From an uncultured Acidimicrobiia bacterium (GTDB lineage: Bacteria; Actinomycetota; Acidimicrobiia; Spongiisociales; Spongiisociaceae): a stretch of DNA of 64,000 nucleotides. Shown in pieces: positions 28,686 through 49,225 of the stretch. Both the position numbers and the translations under genes were made by a program. Positions within the stretch are counted from its first letter, which is position 1. The number at the start of each line of letters is the position of its first letter. Under the pieces are notes generated by a model. That model did no database searches, had not been told where the DNA came from, and saw only the letters and a program-made list of their open reading frames with translations. The stretch spans positions 186,001-250,000 of the forward strand of contig OY282370.1 in NCBI GenBank assembly GCA_958295745.1, given 5' to 3'.

Positions 28686-28725
28686 GGCCGTCGGCTCATG
28701 ATCGGCTCATAGTGACGGCGTCGGC

Positions 28726-29556: not shown

Positions 29557-29662
29557 CGCTGCTCCTATTCCTTTCCATAGAGGTGCTGAACTTTGATATA
29601 TCCCTCGCTGACCAGGCGTTTCAGTCATAGACCGGCAGCAGGGGTATTTGCCCGCCCCCGGC

Positions 29663-30472
29663 TCAGTCCACCATCAGCAGGCCGCCGTTGACATGGATGG
29701 TCTGGCCGGTGACGTAGGCGCCGGCTTCCGAAGCCAAGAATACGGCGGGGCCCACCAGATCCTCGGCTACCTCCATACGCCCCAGCGGAATGTACTTCTC
29801 GTACTCGAACAGGTAGTCGCGGTGGTGGGCATGCATCGGGGTGTCCACGGCGCCGGGGGCTATGGCGTTGACCCGCACCCCGTGAGGGGCCGCGTCCTGG
29901 GCGGCCGCCCTGCTCAAGGATTGGAGGGCGGCCTTGGCGGAGCAGTAGTCGACCCCGCCGCCGTCCTGGTTGAACACCGACGCCCGCGAAGACCAGGAGC
30001 TGCCGATGTTGATCACGCTGCCCCGCCCCGCGGCGACCATCTCCGCCAGAACCGCCCGCATGATCCGCATCGGCGCCCGCAGGTTGACCCCGTACATCCG
30101 GTCCCATTCCTCATCGGTTATCCCGATGATGTCCGCATAGCCCATGATCCCGGCGTTGTTGATCAGGACATCGATGCCGCCGCCCATATCCAGGGCGGCC
30201 CGAACGATCCGCTCGGGCGTGTCTTGGGCCGTCACATCGGCGTGCACGGTGGATGCCTTCCGACCGATCGCCCTTATCTCCTCCGCGGCCCCTTCCAGAT
30301 GGCCGGCGTTCAGATCGACCAGCACCAGATCGCTGCCGGCGTAGGCCAGACCCTTCGAGAGAGCCAGACCGATGCCCCGGCCGGCGCCCGTGACCGCGCT
30401 GACGCAGCCGCTCAAGTCGAACAGGTTGCGGGATATGTCAGGGAAAGGAAGACTCAACTTCGGCCCTTTCAT
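29663..30472 (-). CDS. SDR family oxidoreductase
   Basis: A 269-residue classical short-chain dehydrogenase with a roughly 20-residue N-terminal extension. TGAGRGIG is at residues 28-35, DVLINNAGIMG in the middle, the catalytic serine is in INIGSSWSS, Tyr/Lys in YCSAKAA, and NAIAPGAVDTPM follows. It resembles gluconate 5-dehydrogenase/3-oxoacyl reductase members. It lies between the nucleoside phosphorylase and the PEP-hydrolase-family gene in the long block, with gaps of 113 and 106 bases. Confidence 0.9.
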   Translation of the reverse strand: MKGPKLSLPFPDISRNLFDLSGCVSAVTGAGRGIGLALSKGLAYAGSDLVLVDLNAGHLEGAAEEIRAIGRKASTVHADVTAQDTPERIVRAALDMGGGIDVLINNAGIMGYADIIGITDEEWDRMYGVNLRAPMRIMRAVLAEMVAAGRGSVINIGSSWSSRASVFNQDGGGVDYCSAKAALQSLSRAAAQDAAPHGVRVNAIAPGAVDTPMHAHHRDYLFEYEKYIPLGRMEVAEDLVGPAVFLASEAGAYVTGQTIHVNGGLLMVD

Positions 30473-30585: not shown

Positions 30586-31341
30586 TCAGTCGAGGAGGGT
30601 GATCGACAGGGCCGCCTCGAACACCGCGGCGTTGGCGGCGTCCAACCTCGCCTGTTCCTCCTGGGCGAGCGGGTCCAGGAAGCTCCGGTCGGCGTCGAGC
30701 TGATCCCACACCGCCAGGAGGGCGGCGGCCTCGAAGCCGAAGTACCGGGCGACCGCGTAGAGGGTGGCCGCCTCCATGTCCACCGACCCGTAGCCGCGCT
30801 CCCGCCACTCCTCCACCATCGCCCCGCTCTGGGCGAATATCGAGCTCCAGGTCAGGTGAAGGGAGTCGGCGGCCCTGACACCCCTCGCCTCGAGCTCCGT
30901 CCGGCCGAGCTCGGTCAGACGAGGGTCGGCGGCGACCGCATCGGAGGCCCCGTACAGGTGCGCCACTCCTTCACGGGCCGCGGCCGTGGAAGGCGCCACC
31001 ACGTCGCCGGTGGCCAAGCCGGGGTCCAGCGCACCGCAGGTTCCGATCATCACCATCCGGGGAGTTCCGAGAACGCCGAAGAGGTGCGCCAACTCCACGG
31101 CCCTCGGGGCGCCGTAGACGCACGAGTACACCACCGGCGACCCGCGCCACCGGCCCCAGAACATGTCGGGAAAGGCGAGCTCCCGCACCTCGTCGAGCCG
31201 GCCCAGCCGCCAGGCAGTGCGTTCCGCCCGCCACCACGAGCCTTCCATGATCACGGCTCGGGGTATGTCGCCGGCGTCCATTCCCAGGGCCGCCAACCAT
31301 TCGTCCCGCCCCAGGTCCATAACCGCCTTGCGTCCGGTCAT
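30586..31341 (-). CDS. Nucleoside phosphorylase (uridine phosphorylase/PNP superfamily)
   Basis: A 251-residue member of the PNP_UDP_1 family, which splits nucleosides with phosphate into base and ribose 1-phosphate. MVMIGTCGALDPGLATGDVVAP is the phosphate/ribose-binding strand-loop, and SVDMEAATLYAVA is the ribose-binding motif with the conserved Glu. The ATG at 31341 overlaps the MFS stop by four bases; a longer frame upstream runs through the MFS gene. Its presence with a nucleoside hydrolase in the same block argues that nucleoside-derived sugar enters this pathway (inference). Confidence 0.85.
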   Translation of the reverse strand: MTGRKAVMDLGRDEWLAALGMDAGDIPRAVIMEGSWWRAERTAWRLGRLDEVRELAFPDMFWGRWRGSPVVYSCVYGAPRAVELAHLFGVLGTPRMVMIGTCGALDPGLATGDVVAPSTAAAREGVAHLYGASDAVAADPRLTELGRTELEARGVRAADSLHLTWSSIFAQSGAMVEEWRERGYGSVDMEAATLYAVARYFGFEAAALLAVWDQLDADRSFLDPLAQEEQARLDAANAAVFEAALSITLLD

Positions 31342-32549
31342 CGGTGCCTCCCGCCGGTTTCCTGGATAGATCGGGCCCGGGCGTACCAGCCGTAGGTCCA
31401 GACCGCGCCGGCCAGAACGGTACCGGCCAGGAACAGGAAGACCGCGTCCCAGGCGCCCCGCCCCACGAAACCGCCCACCAGCGGCGAGCCGGCGCCGCCC
31501 CCGAGGTTGAAGGCGAGGATGAAGACGCCGCCCGCGAAACCCGCACCCGCAGGGTTGACCATCCGGGGGAAAAGGCCCAGCACCAGGGAGGAGGAGGCGC
31601 CGACCAGCGCCGTAGCCGCCGCCACCGCCGCGAAACCTCCCGCCAGGCTCGAAACCTGGTTGATCGTGATCAACGCGGCGGCCGCGGCGGTCAGCACGAT
31701 TCCGCCCTTCAGGGCGGGCCGGTGGCCGGCGGCGAGCCGGAACCAGCGTCCCAGGGCGATGGTCGCCGCGACGGCGATGGCCGGCATGGCGGCGGACAGC
31801 AGCCCGGAGCGCGCCACCGACACGCCGTGGACTTCGACGAAGTAGGAGGGCGTCCAGACCAGGAGAGCGACATAGGCCGCCCCGATCGCCGCCGCCGGGG
31901 GCAGCAGCCCGAGCAATCTGCCCGCCGCACCGCGCGGGCGCTCGGAATCCGGCGGTTCCACGATCGGATCCCGCACCCCGATCCACCAGACCACGCCGAC
32001 CGGCACGAGCACCGCCGCCGCGGCGATGAACACCGCCGCCGCACCGCCGCGCTCCACGATGAACCCGCCGAGCGCGAAAGTGAGGGCGCTGCCCGCCGCG
32101 AAGCAGGAACCGAACGAAGCCATCACCCGGCCGGCCCGTTCCTCCGGCACCCAGCGGCCCAACGCTCCGACGAGGGGGGTCCATCCCATGGCCTGGAACA
32201 GGCCGTTGGCGGACCACACGAGGAGGGCCGGGACGAAGCTCCCGGACGAGACGACGAACAACACGTTCATGACCCCGCTCCCCACCAGACCGAGGCCCAC
32301 CAACCGACGGGCGCCGATCCGGTCGGCCAGACGCCCGATGGGCACCGCCGAGAGGGAGTAGACCCAGAAGAAGCCGGCCGCCAGGGCGCCGATCTCCGCC
32401 GCTTCGAGGCCCGCTTCCTCACCGAGGCGCGGCGCCGCCGCCGAGAAGTTCACCCTTCCCAGGTAGTAGACGGCGTACACCGACCATCCGGCCGCCACCA
32501 AGCCCCACCGGGCGTTCGGTCCGGTCGCCGAGCGGGCGGCGGCGGTCAA
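31338..32549 (-). CDS. MFS transporter
   Basis: A 403-residue protein with about 12 hydrophobic helices. The first loop motif of the major facilitator superfamily appears as PIGRLADRIGARRLVG (about residues 70-86), and the start resembles organophosphate/sugar-phosphate or hexuronate transporters (YAVYYLGRVNFSAAAP). The TTG start overlaps the ATPase stop as TTGA, with no clear ribosome site, so it is probably translated by coupling. It may export or import a pathway intermediate. Confidence 0.87.
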   Translation of the reverse strand: MTAAARSATGPNARWGLVAAGWSVYAVYYLGRVNFSAAAPRLGEEAGLEAAEIGALAAGFFWVYSLSAVPIGRLADRIGARRLVGLGLVGSGVMNVLFVVSSGSFVPALLVWSANGLFQAMGWTPLVGALGRWVPEERAGRVMASFGSCFAAGSALTFALGGFIVERGGAAAVFIAAAAVLVPVGVVWWIGVRDPIVEPPDSERPRGAAGRLLGLLPPAAAIGAAYVALLVWTPSYFVEVHGVSVARSGLLSAAMPAIAVAATIALGRWFRLAAGHRPALKGGIVLTAAAAALITINQVSSLAGGFAAVAAATALVGASSSLVLGLFPRMVNPAGAGFAGGVFILAFNLGGGAGSPLVGGFVGRGAWDAVFLFLAGTVLAGAVWTYGWYARARSIQETGGRHR

Positions 32550-33643
32550 CCGGCGGGCTGCCGCGCCGAATCCGAGTCGGCCCGCCCGTCCTTTCCGTCC
32601 GCGGCCGGCCCGAGTATCCAGATCTTGTCGGGATCGAACCTCACCGAGACCTCGTCCCCGTCCGAGAGCTTCTTGACCTGCCCGGGGTCGGTTATCACCT
32701 CGATCTCGACCTCGCCGATCATGACCCGGAAACGGGCGTAGCGGCCTACGTACACATGGGAGCGGATCCTCCCCCGGACGCTGTTGCCCCCGCCGCCGCC
32801 CAGCTCGACCGCCTCGGGCCGGATGCTGAGCACGGCCTCGCCGCGGTCCACGGCCGTGTGCGGCGCCCGGAACCGGCCGATGGCGGTGGTTATCCGGCCA
32901 TCCTCGCAGCGGCCGGGAATGAAGTTGGTTCCGCCGAAGAACTTGGCGATGTCGACGGTCCCGGGGGTTTCGTAGAAGGCGTCGGGAACATCGAACTGCT
33001 GCAGCCGGCCTTCGAACAGGAGGGCGATCTTGTCGGCGAGCACCACCGCTTCCTCCTGATCGTGGGTCACGAAAACGGTCGTGATTCCCAGCTCGGTCTG
33101 GATGCCGCTGATCAGCTCCCGCATCTCGTCGCGCAGGTGGGCGTCGAGGTTGCTGAGCGGTTCGTCCAACAGGAGCACATTGGGCTGGACGATCAGCGCC
33201 CGGGCCAGCGCGATCCGTTGCTGCTGGCCGCCCGACAGCTGCTTCGGTCTGCGCTCCTCGAAGCCGGGCATCTGCACCAGGTCCAACATGTCGCGGACCC
33301 GCGTCCTTATCTCACTGCGGCTCACCCCCCGCATCTTCAAACCGAACCCGATGTTGTCGGCGACGCTCATGTACGGGAACAGGAGGTAGTTCTGGAATAC
33401 CATCACCGCACCGCGATCCTCCGGCGCGATGCCCACTATCGAGCTGCCGTCGAACAGGATGTCGCCGTCGGTCGGCCGCAACAGCCCGGCGATCATCTTC
33501 ATGGTGGTGGTCTTGCCGCAGCCGGAAGGCCCCAGCAGGGCCGTGAGCTTCCCGGATTCGATCTCGATATCGAGCCGATCCACGGCGGGCTCCGACTTCT
33601 CGTCGAACCGCTTGGTCAGGCCGCTGAGTTTCACTTGGGTCAT
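32546..33643 (-). CDS. ABC transporter ATP-binding protein (PotA/UgpC type)
   Basis: A 365-residue ATPase. Walker A LGPSGCGKTT lies at residues 37-46, the Q-loop is VFQNYLLFPYM, the signature LSGGQQQR, Walker B LLLDEPLSNLD and the H-loop FVTHDQEEAV. The last 110 residues form the TOBE domain (LSIRPEAVEL). This domain layout is that of spermidine/putrescine, iron(III) or polyol importers. The ATG overlaps the upstream permease stop by four bases. Confidence 0.93.
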   Translation of the reverse strand: MTQVKLSGLTKRFDEKSEPAVDRLDIEIESGKLTALLGPSGCGKTTTMKMIAGLLRPTDGDILFDGSSIVGIAPEDRGAVMVFQNYLLFPYMSVADNIGFGLKMRGVSRSEIRTRVRDMLDLVQMPGFEERRPKQLSGGQQQRIALARALIVQPNVLLLDEPLSNLDAHLRDEMRELISGIQTELGITTVFVTHDQEEAVVLADKIALLFEGRLQQFDVPDAFYETPGTVDIAKFFGGTNFIPGRCEDGRITTAIGRFRAPHTAVDRGEAVLSIRPEAVELGGGGGNSVRGRIRSHVYVGRYARFRVMIGEVEIEVITDPGQVKKLSDGDEVSVRFDPDKIWILGPAADGKDGRADSDSARQPAG

Positions 33644-34485
33644 ATGTTGCCGATACCTCCTACTGCGGCGCTGTCCCCGGACAGGTAACGCGAGCTCAAG
33701 AGCAGAACCAAAACGGCCGGCAGGATGAACACCACGCTCAGCGCCCCGGCGATGGCCGGGTCGGAACGGACGAAACTGAACAGGAGCAGGGGCAGGGTCT
33801 GCACCTGACCGCCGCCGATCAACAGCGTCAGTACGTACTGGCTCCACGAGATGATAAACGCGAACATCGCCCCCACCACCACCCCGGGGAAGATGGCGGG
33901 CAGGGTCACATACCACTGCGTGGCCAGGCGGCCCGCCCCCAGAGAGCGCGCCTGCAGCTCGAAATCGGTGTCGTAGTTGGCGAACACCCCCGACATCACC
34001 AGCGTCATATAGGGAAGGGTGGGCACCAAGTGCACCAATATCACCCCGGGCAGGCTGTTGGACAGGCCGGCGCGGATGAAAAGGACGTGGATGCCCAGCA
34101 CCACCGCCAGGCCGGGAACGATGATCGGGGCCAGGATCAGCCACTCCACCAGCCGCTTGCCCCGAAACTCGTACAACCCCAAGGCCCGGCCGGCGGGCAC
34201 GCCCAGCAGGATGGAGAAGGCGGTGACGACCAGGGCGATGAGTGCGGTGTTCCAGGCCACCCCCACCACGTCGTTGTTGGGGTTGATCACCTCCGTCCAG
34301 GCGCGGGCGCTGTACTCGGTGGGCAGGATGGCGGGGTAGAACCATCGGAAACTGATCGACCATATGAAGAGCGGAACGATGGGCGCGATGAGGAAGGCCA
34401 GCAGACCGGTGATCCCCACCCAGCGTCCGGTCACCCGCCAAGCAGGGCGATGGACAAGGGTCGTCTTCGCCGCCGCGCCCGCCAT
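33640..34485 (-). CDS. ABC transporter permease (PotC-like)
   Basis: A 281-residue inner-membrane permease with six predicted helices, the first at GLLAFLIAPIVPLFIWSI. The EAA loop is ELQARSLGAGRLATQWYVTLP, which docks to the ATPase. It is preceded by the second permease with only three bases between stop and ATG and overlaps the ATPase gene by four bases. Together these encode a type I importer of the polyamine/sugar/phosphonate class. Confidence 0.92.
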   Translation of the reverse strand: MAGAAAKTTLVHRPAWRVTGRWVGITGLLAFLIAPIVPLFIWSISFRWFYPAILPTEYSARAWTEVINPNNDVVGVAWNTALIALVVTAFSILLGVPAGRALGLYEFRGKRLVEWLILAPIIVPGLAVVLGIHVLFIRAGLSNSLPGVILVHLVPTLPYMTLVMSGVFANYDTDFELQARSLGAGRLATQWYVTLPAIFPGVVVGAMFAFIISWSQYVLTLLIGGGQVQTLPLLLFSFVRSDPAIAGALSVVFILPAVLVLLLSSRYLSGDSAAVGGIGNI

Positions 34486-34488
34486 CTC

Positions 34489-35415
34489 CTAACTCCTTAT
34501 ATACCGGCGGGAGAGCTTCATGTAGGCCAGGATCATCAGGCTGCTCATGAAGGCGATCACCATCGCCATCGCCATAGCCTGGGGGCGCGCCGCCAGATCG
34601 ACGTCGGTGTAGCTCTCGAAGGCCAGCACCGGCAGCGCCTTGGGGAAGGTGGCGCCCAGCAACCAGGGTATCTCGAAGGCGCCGAAGGTGAAGGCGAACA
34701 CGATCACCGAGGCGGACACCACGCCGGGCATTACCAGCGGCAGGGTCACGTGCCGGAAGGCCTGCCAGCGGTTGGCGCCCAGCGACCGGGCCACCGATTC
34801 GTAGTCCTCCCCCACCGAAAGCAGGATGGCCAGCACGATCACCCCAATGAACGGAATCTCCTTCCACACATATTGGATGATGATTCCTATCGCCCACGGA
34901 TCGAACACCAGGGCCGGGAACTCGGCCGGGGCGTCGATCAGGCCGGCGCCGGTGGCCAGACGGGAGACCAGGCCGCTGCCGGAGAAGAGGTAGAGAACGC
35001 CCACCGCCCCCACCAGATGGGGAATGGTCAGGTTGAGCGAGAAGATGAACTGCACGAACCGCTTACCCCGGAAGGCGGGCCGCAGCAGCATCGCCGAGGC
35101 TATCGCCAGGATGGAGGCTATGACGGTGGAGGTGAAGGCGATGTGGAAGGTGAGGACGAAGCTGCGGATGAAACCGTTGTCGGTGAAGATGCTCAGGTAG
35201 GCGTCGAAGTTGAAATCGTTGAGCCCGATCAGGGGGAAGTAACCCAGGCTGCGCAGGAACCCCGTTATCAGCCCGCCCATGAACAGCAGGAGGATCACCA
35301 CTATCACCGGGGCGAGCAACACCCCGATGGTCATCCGCCGCGCCCCCTTCTCGGACAGGCGCATCCGGGGCAGAGACGGCAGTCGGGACGGGTTGGCCGG
35401 AGCTTTTTCGTTCAC
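34489..35415 (-). CDS. ABC transporter permease (PotB-like)
   Basis: A 308-residue inner-membrane permease. The first helix is MTIGVLLAPVIVVILLLFMG after a 27-residue cytoplasmic segment, and the EAA loop is YESVARSLGANRWQAFRHVTLP. Its start is 85 bases from the binding-protein stop, a gap holding a strong perfect hairpin. It pairs with the PotC-like permease to form the membrane channel. Confidence 0.92.
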   Translation of the reverse strand: MNEKAPANPSRLPSLPRMRLSEKGARRMTIGVLLAPVIVVILLLFMGGLITGFLRSLGYFPLIGLNDFNFDAYLSIFTDNGFIRSFVLTFHIAFTSTVIASILAIASAMLLRPAFRGKRFVQFIFSLNLTIPHLVGAVGVLYLFSGSGLVSRLATGAGLIDAPAEFPALVFDPWAIGIIIQYVWKEIPFIGVIVLAILLSVGEDYESVARSLGANRWQAFRHVTLPLVMPGVVSASVIVFAFTFGAFEIPWLLGATFPKALPVLAFESYTDVDLAARPQAMAMAMVIAFMSSLMILAYMKLSRRYIRS

Positions 35416-35500: not shown

Positions 35501-36904
35501 TTATCGCTCGGCTACGTTGGTCTTCCATCCCTCTTCGATGGCCGGCACCCAATCACCGAGCAGCTCGGGAAGGGCTGACACGGTGGCCGGGTCCACCACC
35601 GACGGGTGGCGGGGCACATCGACGAAGGCCGACTGGGCGGCCGCGTTCAACACGTTGATCTGACCCCAGACCTCGGGATAGGCCTTTTGCAGCTGGGCGT
35701 CGATGCTCAGCAGCAGGTCGGCCACCAACAAGGTCGCGGCCTTGTTGGGCGAGTTGTAGGGGATGGCCACGAAGTTGGTGTTGCCGATCTGACCGCTCGA
35801 CAACCCGTAGGTGCGGGTCGACTCGGGGAAGACCCCGCTGTCCACCTTGGAACCGGCCGAGGCCGGGCCGTAGGCCAGGAAGTGCGAGACCTCCTGGTTG
35901 GCGTACAGCTGCTCGAGGGCCGGCTGGTCCACCGGATAGGTCTCCCCGGACCGCCACAGGCACGGCTCCAGCTCGTTCAGGGTCGCCCAGGTAGCCGGCG
36001 CCACCTGGTCGTAGAGCGCCTGGTCGAAGGGGATGCCGACCATGTCCTGGTACCCGCCCGGCAGGATCTTGTTGGCCTCGTTGTAGAACACGTGGCGCAC
36101 GAACACGCTGCCGGTGAAGTCGGGCGGCGCCGGATAGGTGAAGGTTCCCGGGCTGGCGCAGGCCTGCGCCAGCAGGGCGTCCATGTCCGCCGGGGGCTGG
36201 GGCAACAGGGCGCTGTTGTAGAACACGGCCGACTGGGCCTGGTTCCATGGAACCTCACACTCGTTCACCGGGGTGCCGAAGTCGTAGGCCACCGTGCCGG
36301 CCTCCTGGTCCACGTTGGCCATGCTGGGCATGATGCCCCAGTAGCCGCAGAACAGCAGACCGCCCTGCTTCATCGTCTTGAAGTTCTCACCGTTGATCCA
36401 GATCAGATCCACCGAACCGCTGTTGAACTCACCGGCTTCGGTCTCGCTGATCACGGTGTCCACCGCGTTGACGGTGTCGGTGATGCGCACCTGGTTGAGG
36501 TCGATGTTGTAGCGCGACTTGGCCTCGTCGGCCACCCAGTCGTTGACGTAGGCGTTGATCACCGCGCTGCCGCCCCACATGAACCAGTTGACCCGGCCTC
36601 CGTCGGCCGCGGCCACGATCTCGTCCCAGCTCATCCCGCCTATCTCGGAATCAGCCAGGTCCAGGATGCCCGGCCCGGTGGGACCCATCGGTTCCGGCGT
36701 AACCTCCACCGGCACCGTTACCGTCACCTCTACCGTCTCGGTAACCGTTTCGGTCTGGGTAACGATGGACGTGACCACCACTTCCACTTCCACTTGCTCC
36801 GTCACGATGGACGTTATGACTTCCGGCTCGCTGCTGCACGCCGCCGCCACCAGGGCGAACACGAACAACAACGCCGAAAGGCTTAGACCTCTTCTACTTC
36901 TCAT
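35501..36904 (-). CDS. ABC transporter substrate-binding lipoprotein (family 1 type)
   Basis: A 467-residue lipoprotein. The signal peptide has a basic start (MRSRRG), a hydrophobic core and the lipobox LVAAAC with Cys23. A 40-residue low-complexity linker rich in Val, Thr and Glu follows. The mature part begins near NWFMWGGSAVINAYVNDWVAD, as in putative thiamine/spermidine/polyol-binding proteins. ATG 36904 is behind AAAAGGAGG. It should capture the pathway substrate outside the cell for the permeases that follow. Confidence 0.9.
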   Translation of the reverse strand: MRSRRGLSLSALLFVFALVAAACSSEPEVITSIVTEQVEVEVVVTSIVTQTETVTETVEVTVTVPVEVTPEPMGPTGPGILDLADSEIGGMSWDEIVAAADGGRVNWFMWGGSAVINAYVNDWVADEAKSRYNIDLNQVRITDTVNAVDTVISETEAGEFNSGSVDLIWINGENFKTMKQGGLLFCGYWGIMPSMANVDQEAGTVAYDFGTPVNECEVPWNQAQSAVFYNSALLPQPPADMDALLAQACASPGTFTYPAPPDFTGSVFVRHVFYNEANKILPGGYQDMVGIPFDQALYDQVAPATWATLNELEPCLWRSGETYPVDQPALEQLYANQEVSHFLAYGPASAGSKVDSGVFPESTRTYGLSSGQIGNTNFVAIPYNSPNKAATLLVADLLLSIDAQLQKAYPEVWGQINVLNAAAQSAFVDVPRHPSVVDPATVSALPELLGDWVPAIEEGWKTNVAER

Positions 36905-36965
36905 GCTTGGTTCCTCCTTTTGAAAAGTTGGAAATTTCGGGTGCGTTTTCATCTACCGTTTCTGC

Positions 36966-37979
36966 TCATCCACTCGCGCCCCCTTCCGCCGCGGCGGTCG
37001 TACGTCCCAGCACACGATATAGACGCCGCTCCGCAGCCCGCATCTCGTGCTGCATGTTCAGGTTCCTGACCCGGGTGAACTCCGGGAATCCGGCCTGCTG
37101 CTCGGAGGCCCACTCCCTGGCGAAAGAACCGTCCTGGATGTGGGAGATGATGCTCCTGAGCTTCGTCCGCTCGGCCTCCTCGTCCTCGGGAGACAGACGG
37201 GCGGTCACCTCCTGCCCGTACTGGCTGGTACGGGAATGTAGCGTGATCTGGTCCCAGAGACCAATATCACGGTACGCCTTGGCGGTCTCCACCCCCTCCC
37301 CCGACGCGTAGAACTCCAGCATGGCCGCCTCCGGGCTGCACCCGGCCTCGACCAGCACCTCGCAGCAACGGCGCACCGCGTAGAGGTATCCCACCTGTTC
37401 CGCGAAGAGGTCCACGGTGGCCTCCTCGAGAAAGCTCGACACGATCACCCCCATCCTGGTGGAACCGATCCCCTTGCAGAGGGCCAGCGTGCGATCGAGG
37501 GCGGCCTCCCCGGCGGCCTGGTGAACGGCGATCAGGCTGGGGAACCCCTCGCCGCTCAGGAAGGTCTCCCGCACCCCCGATCCGATCATGCGGGGAGCGA
37601 TCAACACCACATCCACGTCGGGGGGCGGCGTTATCAGATCGAAGGCGATGTTGTAGCCGCTGGCGAACACCAGCATGCCGCCCGACCGCAGGCCCGGAGC
37701 GATCTCGGTCTCGAACACCTCCGGCATCACCTCGTCGGGCACCAGGAGGAATACGATGTCGGCCCGCGCCGCCGCCTCGGTGACCGGGAACACGGCGAAG
37801 CCGTCCGCCTCGGCCTGTTCGTAGGACCGGTCCCGGCGGCTTCCCACGATCACCGTGATGCCGCTGTCCCGAAGGTTGAGAGCCTGGGAGCGGCCCTGGT
37901 TGCCGAACCCGACGATGCAGACGGTGCGGCCTTCGATGTGCCGCAGGTCGGCGTCGTCGTCGAAGTACATCCTGGCCAT
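36966..37979 (-). CDS. Ketol-acid reductoisomerase-family protein with altered active site
   Basis: A 337-residue protein with the length and layout of class I IlvC: opening MYFDDDADLRHIEGR, Rossmann GFGNQG (residues 24-29), and the knotted C-terminal domain with VDLFAEQ holding Asp190 and Glu194 (two magnesium ligands). Against the canonical enzyme, His107 is Ser, Lys130 in the usual APKGPGH is Arg in APRMIGS, and the equivalent of Glu230 is Ser226. The first catalytic Glu (222 here) and the late Ser are kept. It shares one base with the dehydrogenase stop. I infer a different reductase or isomerase substrate, not branched-chain synthesis. Confidence 0.82.
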   Translation of the reverse strand: MARMYFDDDADLRHIEGRTVCIVGFGNQGRSQALNLRDSGITVIVGSRRDRSYEQAEADGFAVFPVTEAAARADIVFLLVPDEVMPEVFETEIAPGLRSGGMLVFASGYNIAFDLITPPPDVDVVLIAPRMIGSGVRETFLSGEGFPSLIAVHQAAGEAALDRTLALCKGIGSTRMGVIVSSFLEEATVDLFAEQVGYLYAVRRCCEVLVEAGCSPEAAMLEFYASGEGVETAKAYRDIGLWDQITLHSRTSQYGQEVTARLSPEDEEAERTKLRSIISHIQDGSFAREWASEQQAGFPEFTRVRNLNMQHEMRAAERRLYRVLGRTTAAAEGGASG

Positions 37980-39028
37980 CAGATGCCGGCCCCGGAGGGC
38001 GGGGAGGTTTCGATCATGACCTTGACGGCCCCTCCGCCGACCGAGGCGGTCTCCATGGCCTCGGCCGCCTTCTCCAGGGGGAAGCGGTGGGTGACCAGCA
38101 GGTGCCCGGCGATCCGCCCCGACGACAGGAGCTCGATCGCCTCCGGGAAGGCGTCGCGGCCCAGGTACACGGGAAGCACGGTCGCTTCCTTCGATTGGGC
38201 GAGCATCAGGTCGAAGGGTATCCGCCCCTCTATGTTGACGCCCACCGCCGCCACCCTTCCTCCCGGCCGGACCACCCGCAGGGCCGTCTCCAGAGTGGCG
38301 GGGCTTCCCACCGCCTCGAAGGCGACATCCACCCCCGACGGCTCGGTGCGCTCCAGTATCTCGGCGGCTTCCAGCCCTCCCGCGTCGACGGTCCCGGCGG
38401 CGCCCAGCTCCGCCGCGATGTCCAGACGGCTCTGGTCGAGGTCGGTGGAGTAGACCGCGCCGGCGCCGTAGGCCCGCGCCGCCGCCAGGATCAGCAGTCC
38501 GATGGGCCCCGCCCCGATGATCATGACCGTTTCGCCCGGACGGAGCCCGCTCCGGCGGACCGCATGCACCGCGATCGATGTGGGTTCTACCAAGGCGCCG
38601 AGCGTCGACGGCATCCCGGCGGGCAGATGATGCGCCCCCCGCGCCGGCACCGCCACCAGCTCCTGGAGCGCTCCGTCGGTGTGGGGGGACCCGGTGAACC
38701 GGATATAGGGGCATACGTTGTACAGGCCCCGCCGGCAGGCGCCGCAGCCGCCGCAGGGGATGATCGGTTCCACGGCGATGCGGTCACCGACCGCCGCGGA
38801 ATCCACTTGCGGCCCGACCTCCGCCACCACCCCGGTGAACTCGTGCCCCAGCACATGGGGCCGGAGGATCCGCCAGTCGCCGATGCGGCCGTCCTGGTAG
38901 TAATGCAGGTCGGAACCGCAGATGCCCACCAGCCGGGGCGCGACCAGTATCTGGCCGGGACCGGGCGAAGGCGCGGGGCGGTCCTCCATGGCGAGGCCGC
39001 CTCCCGGATGGAGAACCGCCGCTCTCAT
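37979..39028 (-). CDS. Zinc-dependent polyol/alcohol dehydrogenase
   Basis: A 349-residue medium-chain dehydrogenase. Catalytic zinc residues are in CGSDLHYY and LGHEFTG, and the structural zinc loop is CGGCGACRRGLYNVC. The NAD(P) site is IIGAGPIGL (about residue 170), followed by an acidic STDLDQ suggesting NAD preference. It resembles sorbitol, threonine and L-idonate dehydrogenases. The ATG overlaps the nucleoside hydrolase stop by four bases. In context it would oxidise a polyol or sugar acid to a keto product. Confidence 0.9.
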   Translation of the reverse strand: MRAAVLHPGGGLAMEDRPAPSPGPGQILVAPRLVGICGSDLHYYQDGRIGDWRILRPHVLGHEFTGVVAEVGPQVDSAAVGDRIAVEPIIPCGGCGACRRGLYNVCPYIRFTGSPHTDGALQELVAVPARGAHHLPAGMPSTLGALVEPTSIAVHAVRRSGLRPGETVMIIGAGPIGLLILAAARAYGAGAVYSTDLDQSRLDIAAELGAAGTVDAGGLEAAEILERTEPSGVDVAFEAVGSPATLETALRVVRPGGRVAAVGVNIEGRIPFDLMLAQSKEATVLPVYLGRDAFPEAIELLSSGRIAGHLLVTHRFPLEKAAEAMETASVGGGAVKVMIETSPPSGAGI

Positions 39029-40125
39029 CCGCCGGCGGCCGCGGTCAGGATTCTCTCCTGGTCGTCGAGTTTGGCGATCAGGTCGCGGAAGATCGCATCC
39101 CGATCCACGCCGACCGCTTCGAGCATGACCGGCCCGTCGGCGCGCGGCCTCCAGAAGAGCCGGTCGTCGAGCCGGGGAGTGGCCGTCTCCCTGGTAGGCG
39201 CCCAGCGGCGGTCGATCAGCCACGCGATGTTGATGAGGTCCCAGATCACCCAGGACTGCCCGGGGAAGGGCTCGACCCCCCGCTGGATATGGATCGGGTT
39301 GTTGGTGTACAGATGGAAGAGGTAGTCGCCGATCTCACCCTTGCCCCGGATCCAGGCCTCCATCTCGGGAAGGGAGAACCGCAGCTGGGCGCCGACGTGG
39401 AAGCCCGGCAGGTACACCATCGGGACTCCCGAGTCGAACAGCAGCCGGGAGGCGTGGGGGTCCTGCACCAGGTTCAGGGACGGGCGGTTGCCGAGGCCGG
39501 TCCAGGTCGGGTAACCGGAGGTCCAGGTCACCACCATCCGGGCGGCGATCTCCGGGGCCATCAGCAGGGCCGAGGCGATGTTCGTGACCGCGCCGATGGC
39601 GGCGATGTGCAGGACGCGCTCGTCGTCGGCGAGGGCCGCCTCGACGATGCGCCGGGCCCCCTCGCTCTCCACCGGCACATCGGCGGCCGGCAGGTACCGA
39701 TCCGACCCGCGCCACACCAGGCCCTCGGAGGGTGCGCCCAGCTTGTGGAACACGTTCTCGATCTCGGCGAAGGAGAGCTCCATGCCCTCGTCCGGGCCGG
39801 TCAGATCCATAGTGGCCGGATCGACGCCCAGGGCGGCCAGACGGCGCGCCCAGGGCATGAACCGGTTGGTCGATTCCGAGGCGGCGCCCCGTTCCAGTTC
39901 CTCGGTCGCGGCGATGAGGGGTTCCCGCATATGGAGATGGCCGTAGGGCTCGGCGACCACCGCCTCGATGTCGATGCGCTCGGGCGACAGGGCGGCCCAG
40001 GCCAGAGCGAACTGGTCGTCGATCTCGTTGGCGGCGTCGGTGTCGATCAAGACCCGCACAGGACCGGGCCGGTCTGCCAACATCTCCCGGCGGCGGGCGT
40101 CGCTCACCTTCGGAAACACGGTCAA
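39025..40125 (-). CDS. Nucleoside hydrolase family protein
   Basis: A 366-residue inosine/uridine-preferring-type hydrolase. The calcium/ribose-binding motif is LIDTDAANEIDDQFAL (residues about 26-41), with NLVQDPHASRLLFDSG in the middle and a later aspartate-containing WVIWDLINIAW. Members split N-glycosidic bonds to base plus free ribose. A TTG start at 40125 overlaps the aldolase stop as TTGA, with GGAGG seven bases upstream. It provides a source of free sugar for the isomerase/kinase genes in the block. Confidence 0.87.
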   Translation of the reverse strand: MTVFPKVSDARRREMLADRPGPVRVLIDTDAANEIDDQFALAWAALSPERIDIEAVVAEPYGHLHMREPLIAATEELERGAASESTNRFMPWARRLAALGVDPATMDLTGPDEGMELSFAEIENVFHKLGAPSEGLVWRGSDRYLPAADVPVESEGARRIVEAALADDERVLHIAAIGAVTNIASALLMAPEIAARMVVTWTSGYPTWTGLGNRPSLNLVQDPHASRLLFDSGVPMVYLPGFHVGAQLRFSLPEMEAWIRGKGEIGDYLFHLYTNNPIHIQRGVEPFPGQSWVIWDLINIAWLIDRRWAPTRETATPRLDDRLFWRPRADGPVMLEAVGVDRDAIFRDLIAKLDDQERILTAAAGG

Positions 40126-41066
40126 GGAACATCCTCCATTGTCGGCTTTCCACCTGCGGCGGTCCGGTCACCCGGGGAACGGGTCCTCCAATCTACACCT
40201 TCGTCTTCGGCGATGGTGCGCAGCTCGCGGAGCCGGTCGGCGCAGCTCTCGAGGCTGGCTCGGCCCGTGGCCGCGTCGCGCCACACCGCCCGGCCGGCTA
40301 CGAAGCCCGACGCCCCGGCCCGGCACGCCGCCCCCAACATGTCCCGGAACAGCCGGTAGTCGCTTCCCTCCGACAGAACGGTCCACGGAACGGGGCTGAG
40401 CCGGTCGATCTGCTCGCAGGACTCGGCCCAGGCCTGCCGGGAGGGGTTCTCGACCGGCTGCTCGGGAAACTGGAGCTTGAGCACGTCTGCGCCCAGCCCC
40501 CCAAATCGTCTCACCCCTTCGAGCACCGCCCTCCTGCGGTCGGACGGATCCTCGTACAGGGCCAGCGGCTCGGAGAAAAGCGGCATCTCCGCGGCGGCGC
40601 ACCGTTCCGCCGCATCCGCCGCGAACCGCTCCGCCGCCGAAGTGTCGCCGTCAGGATCGAAGTAGAAGGAGATCTTCACCGCATCGACCCCGAGCCGGGC
40701 CGCCCGCGCCGCGTCCCATCCCGGCAGGAGGCGCGGGGCGGAGCGGGCGTCCTCGTAGTCACCGTCCTCGATGCCCAATACGAGGCCCGCCCCATGCTGC
40801 GTACCCGGCCCGGCGGCGCCCGCCCCGGTCCAGAAACCCGGATCGACCAGCACCGCCCCGGCGTGGGGCCCCAGCCCCTCGACCAGCCGCAGCTTGGCGG
40901 CCCGGAGCTCGTCCGCGCCCATCGAATCCGGATCGCCGGGCCGCACGGCGGCGGCGAACGACCTCACGTGGTCGATGGCCAGGACCGCGAAGCGTCCGGT
41001 GTCGGTGGCCGTCCGCCCGAGACGTTCCGAGCGCATTCCGGATGCCCCGGCGGACCATCCCGTCAT
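40122..41066 (-). CDS. LacD/YihT-like class I aldolase
   Basis: A 314-residue TIM barrel of the tagatose-1,6-bisphosphate / sulfofructose-1-phosphate aldolase type. VLAIDHVRSF opens the barrel, DAVKISFYFDPDG and DVLKLQFPEQP have the two conserved lysines (the latter the Schiff-base candidate), FSEPLALYED is between them, and VLSEGSDYRLF is the phosphate-site strand. It would cleave a phosphorylated ketose into dihydroxyacetone phosphate and an aldehyde. It overlaps the isomerase gene by four bases. Confidence 0.78.
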   Translation of the reverse strand: MTGWSAGASGMRSERLGRTATDTGRFAVLAIDHVRSFAAAVRPGDPDSMGADELRAAKLRLVEGLGPHAGAVLVDPGFWTGAGAAGPGTQHGAGLVLGIEDGDYEDARSAPRLLPGWDAARAARLGVDAVKISFYFDPDGDTSAAERFAADAAERCAAAEMPLFSEPLALYEDPSDRRRAVLEGVRRFGGLGADVLKLQFPEQPVENPSRQAWAESCEQIDRLSPVPWTVLSEGSDYRLFRDMLGAACRAGASGFVAGRAVWRDAATGRASLESCADRLRELRTIAEDEGVDWRTRSPGDRTAAGGKPTMEDVP

Positions 41067-42502
41067 CGGTTCAGGCCGTCGATCTGCAGGTGGTCGCGCA
41101 TGGGCAAGGGCCGGGTGGTCCGCATACCTAGCCAGGCGGCTACCTCGCTCAGCTCCGAGGAAAGGTCACCCTGAGCTACCGCGTAGTGGTGCTCGTGACC
41201 CCCCACGACCAGGGTGTTCACCAGGTCCAACATCTCGATCGGCTCGCCGGCGAGGCGGAACTTCGAGAACCAGCCGCGGGTGCCGTCGAACCCGGCCCGG
41301 CCCGTCTCGACCACTTCGGCGGCAGCGATGAACATCTCGCTGAAGTCGTCCCCGGTGTAGGCGATGGTGGTCTGCTGGGGGGCGAACCGCAGATCGCCCG
41401 AGACCCCGTAGCGCACGTCCGACTTGCGCCCCAGGGTCACATGGTCGACCCAGCGGATTCCGTTGTCCCCGCCGAAGTGCCGGGGCGTCACCCCGCAGTG
41501 CCACAGCAGGGCGGCGTCGGCTTCGTGATCGAGGGCGGTGAGGTCCAACAGGGTGGAAGATCCGTGTATCGGCGACATGGAGTTCATCAGCAGCATCGAC
41601 ACCGCTCCCGGCACGTCGCCCTCGCACGAGACCGCCAGACCGTCCTCCGACCCCAGCAGGCTGTAGGCCATGCACGGGGCCGCCTGGAAGTCGTCCTGGA
41701 AGGTGGGCCAGCACTGCACGGCCAGCGCGTCGTACCCCTCGGCCTCGATGAGCCGCTTGAGGGCCAGGTAGATGCGGGCGTTGCGGTCCATCCCGATTCG
41801 GGGCGCGGTCACCTCGACGGCCAGGTCGGCGGCCGTCTGCACCACCGAGTCCGCCGACCGCTCGTCGACGGCGCGGGCCAATGCGACCACCTCGGCGATC
41901 GAGTGGCGGCCGATCCTCGTACCGAACCGCTCCTCCAGCTTCGCCTCGTCGAACAGCATGTTGTAGAAGCCCGGCGAGACACCGCCGATCCACCCGATAC
42001 GCGCCGAGGCCATCGTCTTGATCCCCTGGAGGGCCCGGATGGTCACGCGGAGCCGCCTGTCCATGTCCGGCTCGTCGATATGGCCGAGGAACCACTTGAA
42101 GGGGATGCGGCGGTCTCGCAGGTATCGGCGGATGATCGAGGCGTAGTGGTTGACCGAGACCAGCGAATGCAGCTGGATGGACCCTTCCAGCACCGGCTCC
42201 GGGGTCGCCCAGAGGCCGATCCGGGGCGCCGCGCCCGCCAGCGGTTCCAGCAGCTCGCCGGAGGCGCAGGCGGCGGCCTGGATCAGAAGGAAGTCGACCC
42301 GCTCCGACGACATGCGGGCGGCCGCCTGCCGCGCCTGCTCCACTTCCTGCACGCCGGTATCGACGGCGATCAGGTCGAAGTCCATCTCGTCGGCTAGGCG
42401 CCGGAGGCCGCCGACGGCGCGCCCGTACTGGTCGTGCTCGTCGGCGTAGTAGGTGCCGAACGCCGCTCCTACATACCCGACCCGAAGCCGCCGGTCCTTC
42501 AT
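41063..42502 (-). CDS. L-fucose/L-arabinose isomerase-family protein
   Basis: A 479-residue protein of the aldose-ketose isomerase superfamily. The N-terminal domain begins RVGYVGAAFGTYY with a Rossmann-like pattern, and the central part includes VQCWPTFQDDFQAAPCMAYS and SCEGDVPGAVSML, matching the conserved metal-site region of FucI-like proteins. C-terminal HEHHYAVAQGDL supplies a likely metal-ligand histidine. ATG 42502 was chosen because the preceding residues are not family-like. Sulfoquinovose isomerases belong to this broad family, but nothing here is specific to them. Confidence 0.8.
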   Translation of the reverse strand: MKDRRLRVGYVGAAFGTYYADEHDQYGRAVGGLRRLADEMDFDLIAVDTGVQEVEQARQAAARMSSERVDFLLIQAAACASGELLEPLAGAAPRIGLWATPEPVLEGSIQLHSLVSVNHYASIIRRYLRDRRIPFKWFLGHIDEPDMDRRLRVTIRALQGIKTMASARIGWIGGVSPGFYNMLFDEAKLEERFGTRIGRHSIAEVVALARAVDERSADSVVQTAADLAVEVTAPRIGMDRNARIYLALKRLIEAEGYDALAVQCWPTFQDDFQAAPCMAYSLLGSEDGLAVSCEGDVPGAVSMLLMNSMSPIHGSSTLLDLTALDHEADAALLWHCGVTPRHFGGDNGIRWVDHVTLGRKSDVRYGVSGDLRFAPQQTTIAYTGDDFSEMFIAAAEVVETGRAGFDGTRGWFSKFRLAGEPIEMLDLVNTLVVGGHEHHYAVAQGDLSSELSEVAAWLGMRTTRPLPMRDHLQIDGLNR

Positions 42503-42553
42503 GACATCACCTCGCAGCCCGCCGAACACTCCCCCGGCCGTCCAAAGAACCCG

Positions 42554-43210
42554 TCATCGATCAGCCTCCTCGCGGTTCATCTCGTCGGCCCAAGCCTCGA
42601 ATATGAGAGCCACGGTAGTAGCGCCGGGGTCCTGATATCCCAGGCTGCGGTCCGGTGCGTAGCGGGCCCGGCCCGCCTTGGGCGGCATACCGGCGGTCGA
42701 AACGGCGCCCCGGCGGGCGGCCCTCGCCGCGGCCGACATGACCCCGGCCAGGGCCTCCCCCGCCTCGAGCGCTGCCCCGGCGCCCTCGACCGCCGGGGCT
42801 AGGGCGTCCAGCATCGTCTTGTGGCCCGGCTCGGCCCTTCCCAACCTCATGACCCGGGCCGTTCCCTTCCCCAGGGCGGCCACGAAGTCGGACGCGTCCG
42901 GCTCGGCAATCCCGGACAGGCGGCCGGCCGCCGCCCCGAAGAACGCCCCGAACAGCGCTCCGGCGGCGCCCCCAACGGTCTCGTGGAAGGCTCCCCCGGT
43001 GGTGCGGAAAACCCCGGCCGCGCCGCGGTCGTCCTGCCCGCCGATCCGGCGCCCGGCCTCGGCGAGAGCTTCGGCCATGTTCACGCCGTGGTCGCCGTCG
43101 CCGGCCACCGCATCCAGACGGGACAGCTCGTCCTGGTGTTCGGCCACCCGGCGGGAGGCCGAGACGATCATTCGGGCGGCCAGGCTGCGGTCCATCGATG
43201 TAACCGCCAT
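42554..43210 (-). CDS. dhaL: Dihydroxyacetone kinase subunit L (DhaL)
   Basis: A 218-residue all-helical nucleotide-binding subunit. VAGDGDHGVNM carries the magnesium-binding aspartates, GGAAGALFGAFFGAAAG the helix around the ADP site, and GHKTMLDAL and PDRSLGYQDPGATTVA the conserved C-terminal half. It supplies ADP/ATP chemistry to DhaK. DAK-family pairs act on dihydroxyacetone or on tetruloses in polyol pathways. No DhaM phosphocarrier is present, so the ATP-dependent mode is likelier. Confidence 0.9.
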   Translation of the reverse strand: MAVTSMDRSLAARMIVSASRRVAEHQDELSRLDAVAGDGDHGVNMAEALAEAGRRIGGQDDRGAAGVFRTTGGAFHETVGGAAGALFGAFFGAAAGRLSGIAEPDASDFVAALGKGTARVMRLGRAEPGHKTMLDALAPAVEGAGAALEAGEALAGVMSAAARAARRGAVSTAGMPPKAGRARYAPDRSLGYQDPGATTVALIFEAWADEMNREEADR

Positions 43211-43227: not shown

Positions 43228-44232
43228 TCACATCGTGAACCCCGCCCCGCGGGCGGGGGCGTCGTACAGATCGAGCATCTCGTCGTCCATGCTGCATAGC
43301 GCGAACGCGAAGCCGGCCTGGTCCAGAGTGGTGGCGTACGGTCCGATCCACGACCGGACCACTTCGATCCCCCTGTCCGCTAGGGCGGCCCGCGCCCCCC
43401 GGTAGAGGATGGACAGCTCCATCAGCGTGAGCGAACCGGCGTTGTTCAGCAGCAGGCCGACCCGGGCGCCGGGACCCGGCTCGGCGTCGTCCACCAGCCG
43501 CCCGATCATCATCTCCGAGATATCGTCCGCCCCCGCCTCCTCGCCGAGGCGGGTTCCCGGCTCCCCGTGCACTCCCATCCCCACCGAGACCGAGGTGTCT
43601 TCGGGGTCCCCGAGGGGCTGGCCGCTGATCGGGTGGGCCACCGTGCCGAGCGCCGCCGACAGCGACCGGGTGTTGTCCCTCACCCTCCGGGCCATCTCTG
43701 CGCACGCCGGCAGCGCCCCGCCCCGTTCGGCCAGCGCCCCGACGATCTTCCACACGAAGAACAGGCCCGCCCCGCCCCGCCGCTCGGTGCTCCGGTCCTT
43801 GGGGGCCGACGCCACATCGTCGTAGAGGACCACCATCTCGACGCCGTCGATTCCCTCGTCCTCGGCCTCGGCGACGGCCAAGGAGGCGTTCATGATGTCG
43901 CCGGTGTGGCTGGAGACCAGCAGCAGTACGCCCCCGCCGCGATCGGCGGCGGCGATGCCTTCCAGTATCCCGCCGGGTCCCGGCGAGGAAAAGATCGGCC
44001 CGGGTACGTTCACATCCAGCAGCCCCTCGCCCACCCAGCCGATCATGGCGGGTTCGTGCCCCGAGCCGTTGCCGATCACCAACCCGACCCGGCCCTCCGG
44101 TTTGGGGACCGCCCGCACCACCAAGGCGCCGGACAGCCGGATTATGTCGGCGTGGGCCGCCGCATAACCCTCCAGCATCTCCTGGACCGCCCGGCGGGGT
44201 TGGTTGAAGAACCGCCGGGTGCGGATGCTCAT
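43228..44232 (-). CDS. dhaK: Dihydroxyacetone kinase subunit K (DhaK)
   Basis: A 334-residue substrate-binding subunit. GNGSGHEPAMIGWVGEGLLD is the ligand loop, LVSSHTGDIMNASLA the central strand, and GMGVHGEPGTRLGE contains the histidine that forms the hemiaminal with the ketone. VGLLLNNAGSLTLMEL is typical of the C-terminal domain. It overlaps the epimerase gene by four bases and is followed by dhaL after 17 bases. The neighbouring isomerase, epimerase and aldolase suggest a ketose substrate rather than plain dihydroxyacetone (inference). Confidence 0.92.
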   Translation of the reverse strand: MSIRTRRFFNQPRRAVQEMLEGYAAAHADIIRLSGALVVRAVPKPEGRVGLVIGNGSGHEPAMIGWVGEGLLDVNVPGPIFSSPGPGGILEGIAAADRGGGVLLLVSSHTGDIMNASLAVAEAEDEGIDGVEMVVLYDDVASAPKDRSTERRGGAGLFFVWKIVGALAERGGALPACAEMARRVRDNTRSLSAALGTVAHPISGQPLGDPEDTSVSVGMGVHGEPGTRLGEEAGADDISEMMIGRLVDDAEPGPGARVGLLLNNAGSLTLMELSILYRGARAALADRGIEVVRSWIGPYATTLDQAGFAFALCSMDDEMLDLYDAPARGAGFTM

Positions 44233-45071
44233 GCGATGTTCTCCCTGATGAAGCGGGCCGCGTCGGCGGCGTCCCGGTCGAGGTCGTCGGAGAGATCCCG
44301 CCATGCGTAGGTGGCCCGGCCCGTCTCGGCGCCCGAGTTGGGGAAGGTCTCGAAGACCACCCAGCCGCCGTAGCCCGCCTCGTCGAGAGCCGTCTTGAAG
44401 GAGGCCCAGTCGATATGGCCGTACTGGGGGGCGCGGCGGTTGTTGGCCGCCGCCTGGACGTGGCCGATGCGCCCGGCCGCCAGGCGGACCGCCCCGGCCA
44501 GGTCGTCCTCCTCCATGTTCATGTGGAAGGTGTCGAGCTCGACCTCGACGGAGGGATGGTCCACCGAGTCGATGAAGTCCAGGCACTCGGCGACCGTGTT
44601 GAACATGAAGCTCTCGAAACGGTTCAGCACCTCGAGGCAGATGGTGACACCCAGCGCGGCGGCGTGTTCGGCCGCTTCGTGGAGCGACGCCGCCGAACGT
44701 TTCCGGCGGACGTCGAGATCGCCCTCGGGGAACCCCATCCACGGGGCGTAGGTCACACCTCCCAGGATCGGGCTCCCCAGCCGGGCCGCCTGATCGAGGC
44801 AGCGCCGGAGATGCTCCACCCCGGCGGCGCGCACACCGGCGTCTGGGCTCGAGATGTCCATCTCCGGGGTGAGGCCGGTGCTGCACAGGACGCTCAGGCC
44901 CAGAGACTCGGCGGTGCGGGCGATCCGCTCCACCCCGACGTCGACCCCGGCCACGAACGACATCTCCACCCCGTCGTAACCGGCCTCGGCCGCCTTGGCG
45001 AAAACCGAGGCCTGGTCGTCGTACCAGCTGTCCAGCCAGTAGAAGATCTCGATTCCGACCGGCCGGGTCAT
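44229..45071 (-). CDS. Sugar isomerase/epimerase, ketose 3-epimerase-like
   Basis: A 280-residue AP endonuclease 2-family TIM barrel. The four metal ligands of the D-tagatose/D-psicose 3-epimerase group can be placed: Glu in CLEVLNRFE, Asp in ELDTFHMNM, His in GHVQAAANN and Glu in VVFETF. The AAANNRRAPQYGHIDW stretch is also typical. It would interconvert ketose C3 epimers. It overlaps the DUF35 gene upstream and dhaK downstream, both by four bases. Confidence 0.88.
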   Translation of the reverse strand: MTRPVGIEIFYWLDSWYDDQASVFAKAAEAGYDGVEMSFVAGVDVGVERIARTAESLGLSVLCSTGLTPEMDISSPDAGVRAAGVEHLRRCLDQAARLGSPILGGVTYAPWMGFPEGDLDVRRKRSAASLHEAAEHAAALGVTICLEVLNRFESFMFNTVAECLDFIDSVDHPSVEVELDTFHMNMEEDDLAGAVRLAAGRIGHVQAAANNRRAPQYGHIDWASFKTALDEAGYGGWVVFETFPNSGAETGRATYAWRDLSDDLDRDAADAARFIRENIA

Positions 45072-45544
45072 GCGGCCCTCCCTTCGATCTCGAACGCCGC
45101 CCTCAGCAGAGGGTGGGCGGGGACCCCTTCCATGAACTTCACGGCTACCACCGTACCTTTCTCCGGTATCCGGTCGCCCAGCACCCTGTGGGTGATACCT
45201 CCTTCCACCCCGTCCAGGCGTATCGAGGCGAGCAGGTAGGGCGCCTCCACGCCGCCGAAGGGCGGGGGGATGTGAACGCGGGTGGCGGCGGTTACCGTCC
45301 CGGTCCCGGGCAGGTCGTACCAGGCGGTTTCCGCCAGATCGACCGGGCAGAACGGGCGGGGGGGAAACCACGCCGCCCCGCACCCGTCGCAGCGGGTGGC
45401 CCTCAGGACGCCCTGGTCGATCCCCCGATAGAAAGGGTCGGCGAACCCGGCCGTATGGCGGTAGCGCTGCGACATCTCGATATGGAACAGGGAGGTCGGC
45501 CGCCCCGCCCTACTCACACCGCGCTCCACGCCGTGCACCCGCAT
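45068..45544 (-). CDS. DUF35 Zn-ribbon/OB-fold protein
   Basis: A 158-residue protein with a rubredoxin-like zinc ribbon (CDGCGAAWFPPRPFC) followed by an OB-fold (GTGTVTAATRVHI, APYLLASIRLDGVEGG, VVAVKFMEG). Such proteins are obligate partners of thiolase-fold enzymes, for example ChsH2-DUF35 with the aldolase Ltp2. ATG 45544 is behind TTGGAG; an internal ATG (MSQRYRH) would give a shorter form. It sits 47 bases after the thiolase-like gene. Confidence 0.85.
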   Translation of the reverse strand: MRVHGVERGVSRAGRPTSLFHIEMSQRYRHTAGFADPFYRGIDQGVLRATRCDGCGAAWFPPRPFCPVDLAETAWYDLPGTGTVTAATRVHIPPPFGGVEAPYLLASIRLDGVEGGITHRVLGDRIPEKGTVVAVKFMEGVPAHPLLRAAFEIEGRAA

Positions 45545-49076: not shown

Positions 49077-49225
49077 TCGTTCATCGGGCCTTTCAAGGTA
49101 TCGGCGCCGCCGGTGGAACAGGCGCGAGCGGCGCGACGTCTCGCCTTCGGCATCGGCGGTAACCATACTCGCGTATGGGGCATCGTCCTTCCTGTTGCAG
49201 CACGCCGCCGGACGAGAGGAAACAG

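Follow-up and report, generated by a model that had tools for sequence, protein, structure and literature searches.

The reaction of the D-apionate oxidoisomerase ApnO is formally the reverse of the ketol-acid reductoisomerase (KARI) step and takes place in sugar catabolism. The KARI fold has been recruited to a new reaction in BurG, a remodelled KARI from a genome with a normal ilvC gene that uses two Mg2+ ions and NAD, carries out a transient oxidation of an alpha-hydroxy acid and reduces hydroxypyruvate (PMC9359912). The best sequence match in the PDB to the protein described here (E-value: 1.7e-84) is the Saccharolobus solfataricus "putative ketol-acid reductoisomerase 2" (Sso-KARI, 6JCV/6JD2), which is dodecameric in the solved structures (PMC8615647). 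A limited search of the open literature yielded no description of the KARI-like subfamily to which we assign our protein and nothing relevant on a KARI-like catabolic enzyme. The gene encoding it is located in a 64,000-nucleotide stretch of a contig from an uncultured Acidimicrobiia bacterium (the window, that is, the whole stretch analyzed).

The KARI-like gene and the ilvC gene of the same genome

The KARI-like gene has the coordinates and strand given in the original prediction (Table 1). Its reading frame closes with a stop codon and contains no internal stops, and its start codon overlaps the stop codon of the Zn-dependent dehydrogenase gene as TGATG. The protein matches the Pfam domains KARI_N (198.8 bits) and KARI_C (77.2 bits), both above cut-off. 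With respect to NCBIfam models, it scores above the cut-off of TIGR00465 (ilvC; 256.1 vs. 226.15) and below those of NF004017 (282.9 vs. 336) and NF009940 (233.8 vs. 406). This is a genuine, intact gene coding for a KARI-fold protein. A pseudogene or decaying duplicate was ruled out, as the KARI-like orthologues are conserved nearly as strongly (78-85% identity) as the ilvC products (82-87% identity).

A normal ilvC gene is found elsewhere in the genome. It immediately follows ilvN and a partial ilvB (an ilvB-ilvN-ilvC locus), and its product matches KARI_C with an E-value of 2.1e-63, compared to 6.1e-22 for the KARI-like protein. Both genes occur in 13 genomes of the family, that of the window included, while ilvC occurs alone in two. 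A misplaced housekeeping ilvC was ruled out on the grounds that the genome has a true ilvC and that the AU test (see below) is against it. A distinctly unlikely explanation is that the protein is a second genuine KARI in which a Ser/Arg/MIG site still turns over acetolactate, its operon position being incidental or its role being promiscuous branched-chain synthesis. The TIGR00465 score, which counts against the function that we favour below, supports this explanation, but all of the family genomes that carry the KARI-like gene also carry a normal ilvC.

A subfamily separate from IlvC

Among 84,980 species genomes scanned, 137 relatives were identified and the 80 best were retained. These best 80 are from the Acidimicrobiia, Rhodobacterales and other Alphaproteobacteria, Trueperaceae, Chloroflexota, Desulfobacterota, Bacillota, Verrucomicrobiota, Binatota, haloarchaea, Thermoplasmata, Bathyarchaeota and Marsarchaeota. 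The KARI-like proteins were split from IlvC with an SH-aLRT of 100 in a 74-row tree and with bootstrap/SH-aLRT values of 100/100 in a 33-row tree. The window protein falls within a clade that contains Sso-KARI and excludes IlvC, and a tree in which it was forced together with IlvC was rejected (p-AU 0.0095). The subfamily has the signature FA[S/H]GYN...APRM[ILV]G...YxSxE...HSxTSQ[YF]G, and the window protein matches the APRM[ILV]G, YxSxE and HSxTSQ[YF]G elements. Judging from these trees and motifs, the window protein is a member of a separate, ancient and widespread KARI-like subfamily of bacteria and archaea that is marked by its substitutions. The earlier expectation of a separate clade with common substitutions, outside of housekeeping IlvC, agrees with these trees; however, the clade extends well beyond this gene, being ancient and widespread and having a solved member in Sso-KARI. 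That the clade and its signature are maintained over many phyla argues against a second genuine KARI.

Several KARI-like relatives are labelled ilvC in RefSeq with branched-chain amino acid terms. For example, KARI-like proteins on Sulfitobacter and haloarchaeal plasmids (L120-L123) are annotated as ilvC with valine/isoleucine biosynthesis terms, which is probably a misannotation.

Active-site residues

Residues were compared in an alignment of 113 KARI-like relatives and 26 IlvC proteins. Near copies occur among the 113 rows, and an alignment of 35 diverse members gives a fairer residue count. The genome scan had picked its sequences using two motifs of the N-terminal half (GNQGRSQA and [LF]LVPDEVM) and not the residues counted. 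In IlvC numbering, the window protein has Ser107, Arg130, Met131, Ile132, Gly133, Ser134, Asp190 and Glu194, so that three proposed changes are borne out: Ser in place of His107, Arg in place of Lys130 and an APRMIGS loop instead of APKGPGH. His107 and Lys130 are each kept in 26/26 IlvC rows. As the change at position 107 is variable in the subfamily (Ser in 90/113 rows, His in 23/113), Arg130 and Met131 (112/113 and 113/113, respectively) are the better hallmark. Among the 35 diverse members, Met131, Gly133, Asp190, Glu194, Ser226, Glu228 and Ser249 are invariant and Arg130 is present in at least 90%. Substitutions conserved to this degree are not due to chance.

It had also been claimed that Asp190, Glu194 and the first C-terminal Glu (Glu222 in the window protein) are kept, which is correct, and that the second C-terminal Glu is replaced by Ser, which is an artefact of an ungapped comparison. 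KARI-like proteins have, family-wide, two extra residues (Ser226-Gly227) before this second Glu. When the gap is taken into account, Glu222 corresponds to Glu226 of IlvC and Glu228 to Glu230, the latter pair being aligned in 113/113 rows. Ser251 is retained as well. In the AlphaFold monomer model, helices 216-225 and 228-239 are separated by a break, as expected from an insertion at this point and in agreement with the gapped alignment. That the second catalytic Glu has been lost was ruled out on this basis. The IlvC ligands of the two Mg2+ ions (Asp190, Glu194, Glu226 and Glu230) are matched in the alignment by Asp190, Glu194, Glu222 and Glu228, and the two-metal site looks complete. The extent to which the active site has been rewritten was therefore overstated in the original prediction, as all of the metal ligands are retained.

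These ligands are in keeping with a second genuine KARI. They bear differently on an unlikely alternative, that the protein is a simple reductase without isomerase activity, acting on an aldehyde or 2-keto acid from the aldolase or dehydrogenase of the operon in the manner of the tartronate-semialdehyde or sulfolactaldehyde reductases of the wider 6PGDH-like superfamily. The replacement of His107 and Lys130 fits such an enzyme, as do the reduction of hydroxypyruvate by KARI-fold enzymes such as BurG (PMC9359912) and the presence of aldolase, SftI-like isomerase and DhaKL genes in the same run. However, the subfamily-wide retention of the metal ligands suggests that two-metal chemistry is still required, and most orthologous loci do not retain the aldolase and isomerase genes alongside the KARI-like gene.

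Predicted structure and comparison with Sso-KARI

The AlphaFold monomer of the window protein (pLDDT 94.2, pTM 0.89) superimposes on 6JD2 with a Z-score of 37.2 and an rmsd of 1.6 over 322 residues (45% identity). Ordinary KARIs have similar Z-scores against the model, and the fold alone has no discriminating power. Sso-KARI belongs to the same clade as the window protein and has the motifs FASGYN, APRMVG, LEFYASGE and HSTTSQYG, with the same Ser/Arg/Met and YASGE residues. The cofactor loops differ (GNVKDK in Sso-KARI vs. GSRRDR in the window protein). The PDB entry titles name Mg2+, either NADH or NADPH, and the KARI inhibitor CPD as the ligands in the Sso-KARI complexes. Because a protein with these residues was solved with such ligands, the substitutions alone do not exclude ketol-acid chemistry, and the step from substitutions to a new reaction that was made originally is not upheld. 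A second genuine KARI gains from this comparison, as the nearest solved relative is named a KARI, was solved with KARI ligands and reportedly showed acetolactate activity in the hands of its authors.

Genes surrounding the KARI-like gene

The KARI-like gene is part of a run of genes on one strand. The run begins with genes encoding a sulfatase, a thiolase and an OB-fold protein (the identity of the last was read from its translation) and continues with the genes of Table 1 in the order listed, including a four-gene ABC importer.

Table 1. Features of the gene run in the window, in the order of the run
Feature	Coordinates	Strand	Basis or remark
Ketose 3-epimerase, D-tagatose/D-psicose 3-epimerase family	44229..45080	-	NCBIfam
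Dihydroxyacetone kinase subunit DhaK	43228..44232	-	domain models
Dihydroxyacetone kinase subunit DhaL	42554..43195	-	domain models
Sugar isomerase, fucose/arabinose-isomerase type	41063..42505	-	best NCBIfam match SftI, 158 bits vs. cut-off 700
Class I aldolase, DeoC/LacD family	40122..41066	-	nearest solved relatives include DUF2090 protein, YihT, LacD
Nucleoside-hydrolase-like (IU_nuc_hydro)	39025..40125	-	DTDAANEIDD motif
Zn-dependent alcohol/polyol dehydrogenase (Zn-ADH)	37979..39022	-	best NCBIfam relatives IolM, Tdh, L-idonate 5-dehydrogenase, all below cut-off
KARI-like oxidoreductase (P0001, 337 aa)	36966..37979	-	Pfam, NCBIfam, alignment, model, tree
ABC importer solute-binding protein (PRK11622 family)	35501..36952	-	starts 13 bases after KARI-like stop
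ABC importer permease	34489..35415	-	88-93% identity across orthologous loci
ABC importer permease	33640..34485	-	orthologous loci
ABC importer ATPase	32546..33646	-	start approximate
MFS transporter	31338..32549	-	orthologue in locus L043
Nucleoside-phosphorylase-like (PNP_UDP_1)	30586..31389	-	domain models, orthologous loci
SDR-family dehydrogenase, end of run	29663..30472	-	some distant loci have SDRs of 32-36% identity

The neighbour annotation agrees with the earlier description of a polyol-type dehydrogenase on one side, an ABC importer on the other and no ilv or leu genes. A neighbourhood that looks catabolic rather than dedicated to branched-chain biosynthesis was also read correctly, while the sugar-derived substrate that was proposed with it remains a suggestion drawn from the neighbouring genes. 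The sulfatase gene (46815-49166) is followed in the run by the thiolase-like gene (45592-46815), and in a Paracoccaceae locus (L066) the KARI-like gene again has a sulfatase beside it. At the end of the run (27468-29628), a UPF0261 (Tm-1-like) gene is found beside a phosphoenolpyruvate-hydrolase-like (PF09370) gene, followed by an SDR; these are two uncharacterized families side by side.

The SftI-like isomerase, YihT-like aldolase and upstream sulfatase hint at sulfoquinovose catabolism, but this lead is unsupported for three reasons. First, the SftI match is far below the cut-off. Second, the aldolase matches LacD about equally. Third, no known sulfosugar gene set was recognized in the annotated stretch. 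The breakdown of ara-nucleosides in sponges, which the nucleoside hydrolase and phosphorylase neighbours bring to mind, is an idea only.

Gene context in orthologous and distant loci

In Acidimicrobiia loci of the window's family, the nucleoside-hydrolase-like, Zn-ADH, KARI-like, solute-binding protein, permease (two), ATPase, MFS and nucleoside-phosphorylase-like genes are conserved in this order as far as the contigs reach, and the Zn-ADH gene adjoins the KARI-like gene in 10 orthologous loci. The epimerase-DhaK-DhaL-isomerase-aldolase block is present in L040 and L043, absent within the up to 10 kb examined in L041, L042, L049, L052 and L056, and a class I aldolase gene occurs in only part of the orthologous loci. 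Further afield, a nucleoside-hydrolase-like gene is near the KARI-like gene in Trueperaceae (52% identity) and Paracoccaceae (51% identity) loci, a linkage that extends across three phyla, and the ABC importer is near it in a Rhodovibrionaceae locus (48-62% identity). The hydrolase and importer linkages thus recur in Deinococcota and Pseudomonadota. Both this conserved gene order and the absence of ilv gene families from the 25 commonest neighbour families of KARI-like genes speak against a second genuine KARI. In a different family of the same order, orthologues (77-79% identity; L046-L048, L051 and L053) lack the nucleoside hydrolase and ADH genes, and several of them adjoin a family-5 ABC importer instead; with these partners missing, the link to sugars is not universal.

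Distant members of the subfamily have enolase-superfamily dehydratases of sugar-acid type, cupins and SDRs as neighbours. Elsewhere, they are found near glycerate kinase, TRAP importer and aldehyde dehydrogenase genes, near LarA racemases, GntP permeases, GntR regulators and ABC importers, or near hydantoinase A/B, glycyl radical enzyme and MurT ligase genes. There is no dominant neighbour gene family, and neighbours this mixed make a single substrate for the whole subfamily unlikely.

Several individual settings were also noted. In Desulfofustis glycolicus (L068, 5736-9000), the KARI-like gene is located by a glycyl radical enzyme of trans-4-hydroxy-L-proline dehydratase type and its activase, a hint that the substrate of that branch is a different one. 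A sulfonate lyase was ruled out for this glycyl radical enzyme, which is hydroxyproline-dehydratase-like and above the cut-off of that model. In L072 (666-2943) and L075 (5463-7744), the gene directly after the KARI-like gene belongs to the cluster of LarA nickel-dependent 2-hydroxyacid racemases, which would fit a 2-hydroxy acid as the substrate of that branch. In a Rhodobacteraceae locus (L063, 17230-18780), the KARI-like gene is followed by a TAXI-type TRAP importer, CoA-transferases and a thiamine-diphosphate enzyme, and in L073 (8706-12357) it has the odd setting of an ADP-ribosylglycohydrolase and a MurT-type ligase on its two sides.

The sugar-acid-type dehydratases beside distant members lend some weight to a catabolic oxido-isomerase, in which KARI chemistry would run in reverse and a branched sugar acid or polyol would be oxidized and rearranged to a keto acid, as proposed for the D-apionate oxidoisomerase. 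The complete-looking two-metal site is in line with this, and BurG is a KARI fold able to oxidize a 2,3-dihydroxy acid (PMC9359912). Even so, we regard such an enzyme as very doubtful here: no apiose or branched-sugar genes were recognized in the operon, and the direction of a reaction is not readable from sequence.

Proposed function

We favour, as the somewhat more probable account, a Mg2+/NAD(P)-dependent catabolic oxidoreductase that possibly still isomerizes and whose substrate is a small hydroxy-keto acid or ketol derived from a glycoside taken up by the cell. Mg2+/NAD(P)-dependent chemistry beside a carboxylate or ketol is favoured by the conserved metal ligands and fold, and another substrate by the changes at His107, Lys130 and the GPGH loop; the conserved linkage to an importer and a hydrolase, in genomes that have a normal ilvC, argues for a catabolic role. 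Besides the TIGR00465 score, a further point against this account is that most orthologous loci lack the isomerase, aldolase, DhaKL and epimerase genes within 10 kb.

Most likely, two Mg2+ ions would be bound through Asp190, Glu194, Glu222, Glu228 and Ser249, as in IlvC, and the N-terminal Rossmann domain would hold NAD(P)H. With Arg130 and the MIG loop in place of the Lys/GPGH grip on the substrate, the substrate pocket would be altered, while metal-assisted hydride transfer beside a carboxylate or ketol would be retained. The ABC importer may bring in a glycoside that is then cut by the nucleoside-hydrolase-like enzyme, and the KARI-like enzyme would probably reduce, oxidize or reducto-isomerize the resulting small hydroxy-keto acid or ketol. 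We infer the catalytic direction, the substrate and the retention or loss of alkyl migration. It is quite improbable that the whole subfamily is catabolic and uses ketol-acid reducto-isomerase chemistry, running oxidatively in this operon, to convert branched hydroxy acids derived from sugars; if true, this would add new steps to the breakdown of glycosides or nucleoside sugars.

The main value of the finding is a widespread, mislabelled sister subfamily of IlvC. A textbook biosynthetic enzyme has a large sister subfamily in catabolic settings, and where these genes are counted as ilvC, valine/isoleucine synthesis would be wrongly credited and probable catabolic enzymes would be hidden. The two can be told apart by eye using the APRM[ILV]G and HSxTSQ signature. 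The subfamily also raises a question of enzymology, namely how KARI chemistry would proceed with His107 and Lys130 replaced and the two-metal site retained.

Comparison with other KARI-fold enzymes

The KARI-like protein shares its fold, domains, metal ligands and NAD(P)-binding domain with class I IlvC. It differs in the replacement of His107, Lys130, the GPGH loop and TAE, in a 2-residue insertion before the second Glu and in a 4-residue deletion shortly after Glu194. Furthermore, it is encoded outside of an ilv operon, belongs to a separate clade and is only 38% identical to the IlvC of its own genome. Among enzymes with other reactions, ApnO may be compared with the KARI-like protein through its reaction. 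BurG (PDB 7PCC-7PCT) resembles it in being a remodelled KARI alongside a normal ilvC in the genome, although its match to the window protein (E-value: 6e-56) is weaker than that of most ordinary KARIs and, in contrast to the catabolic role that we read for the KARI-like gene, BurG is biosynthetic.
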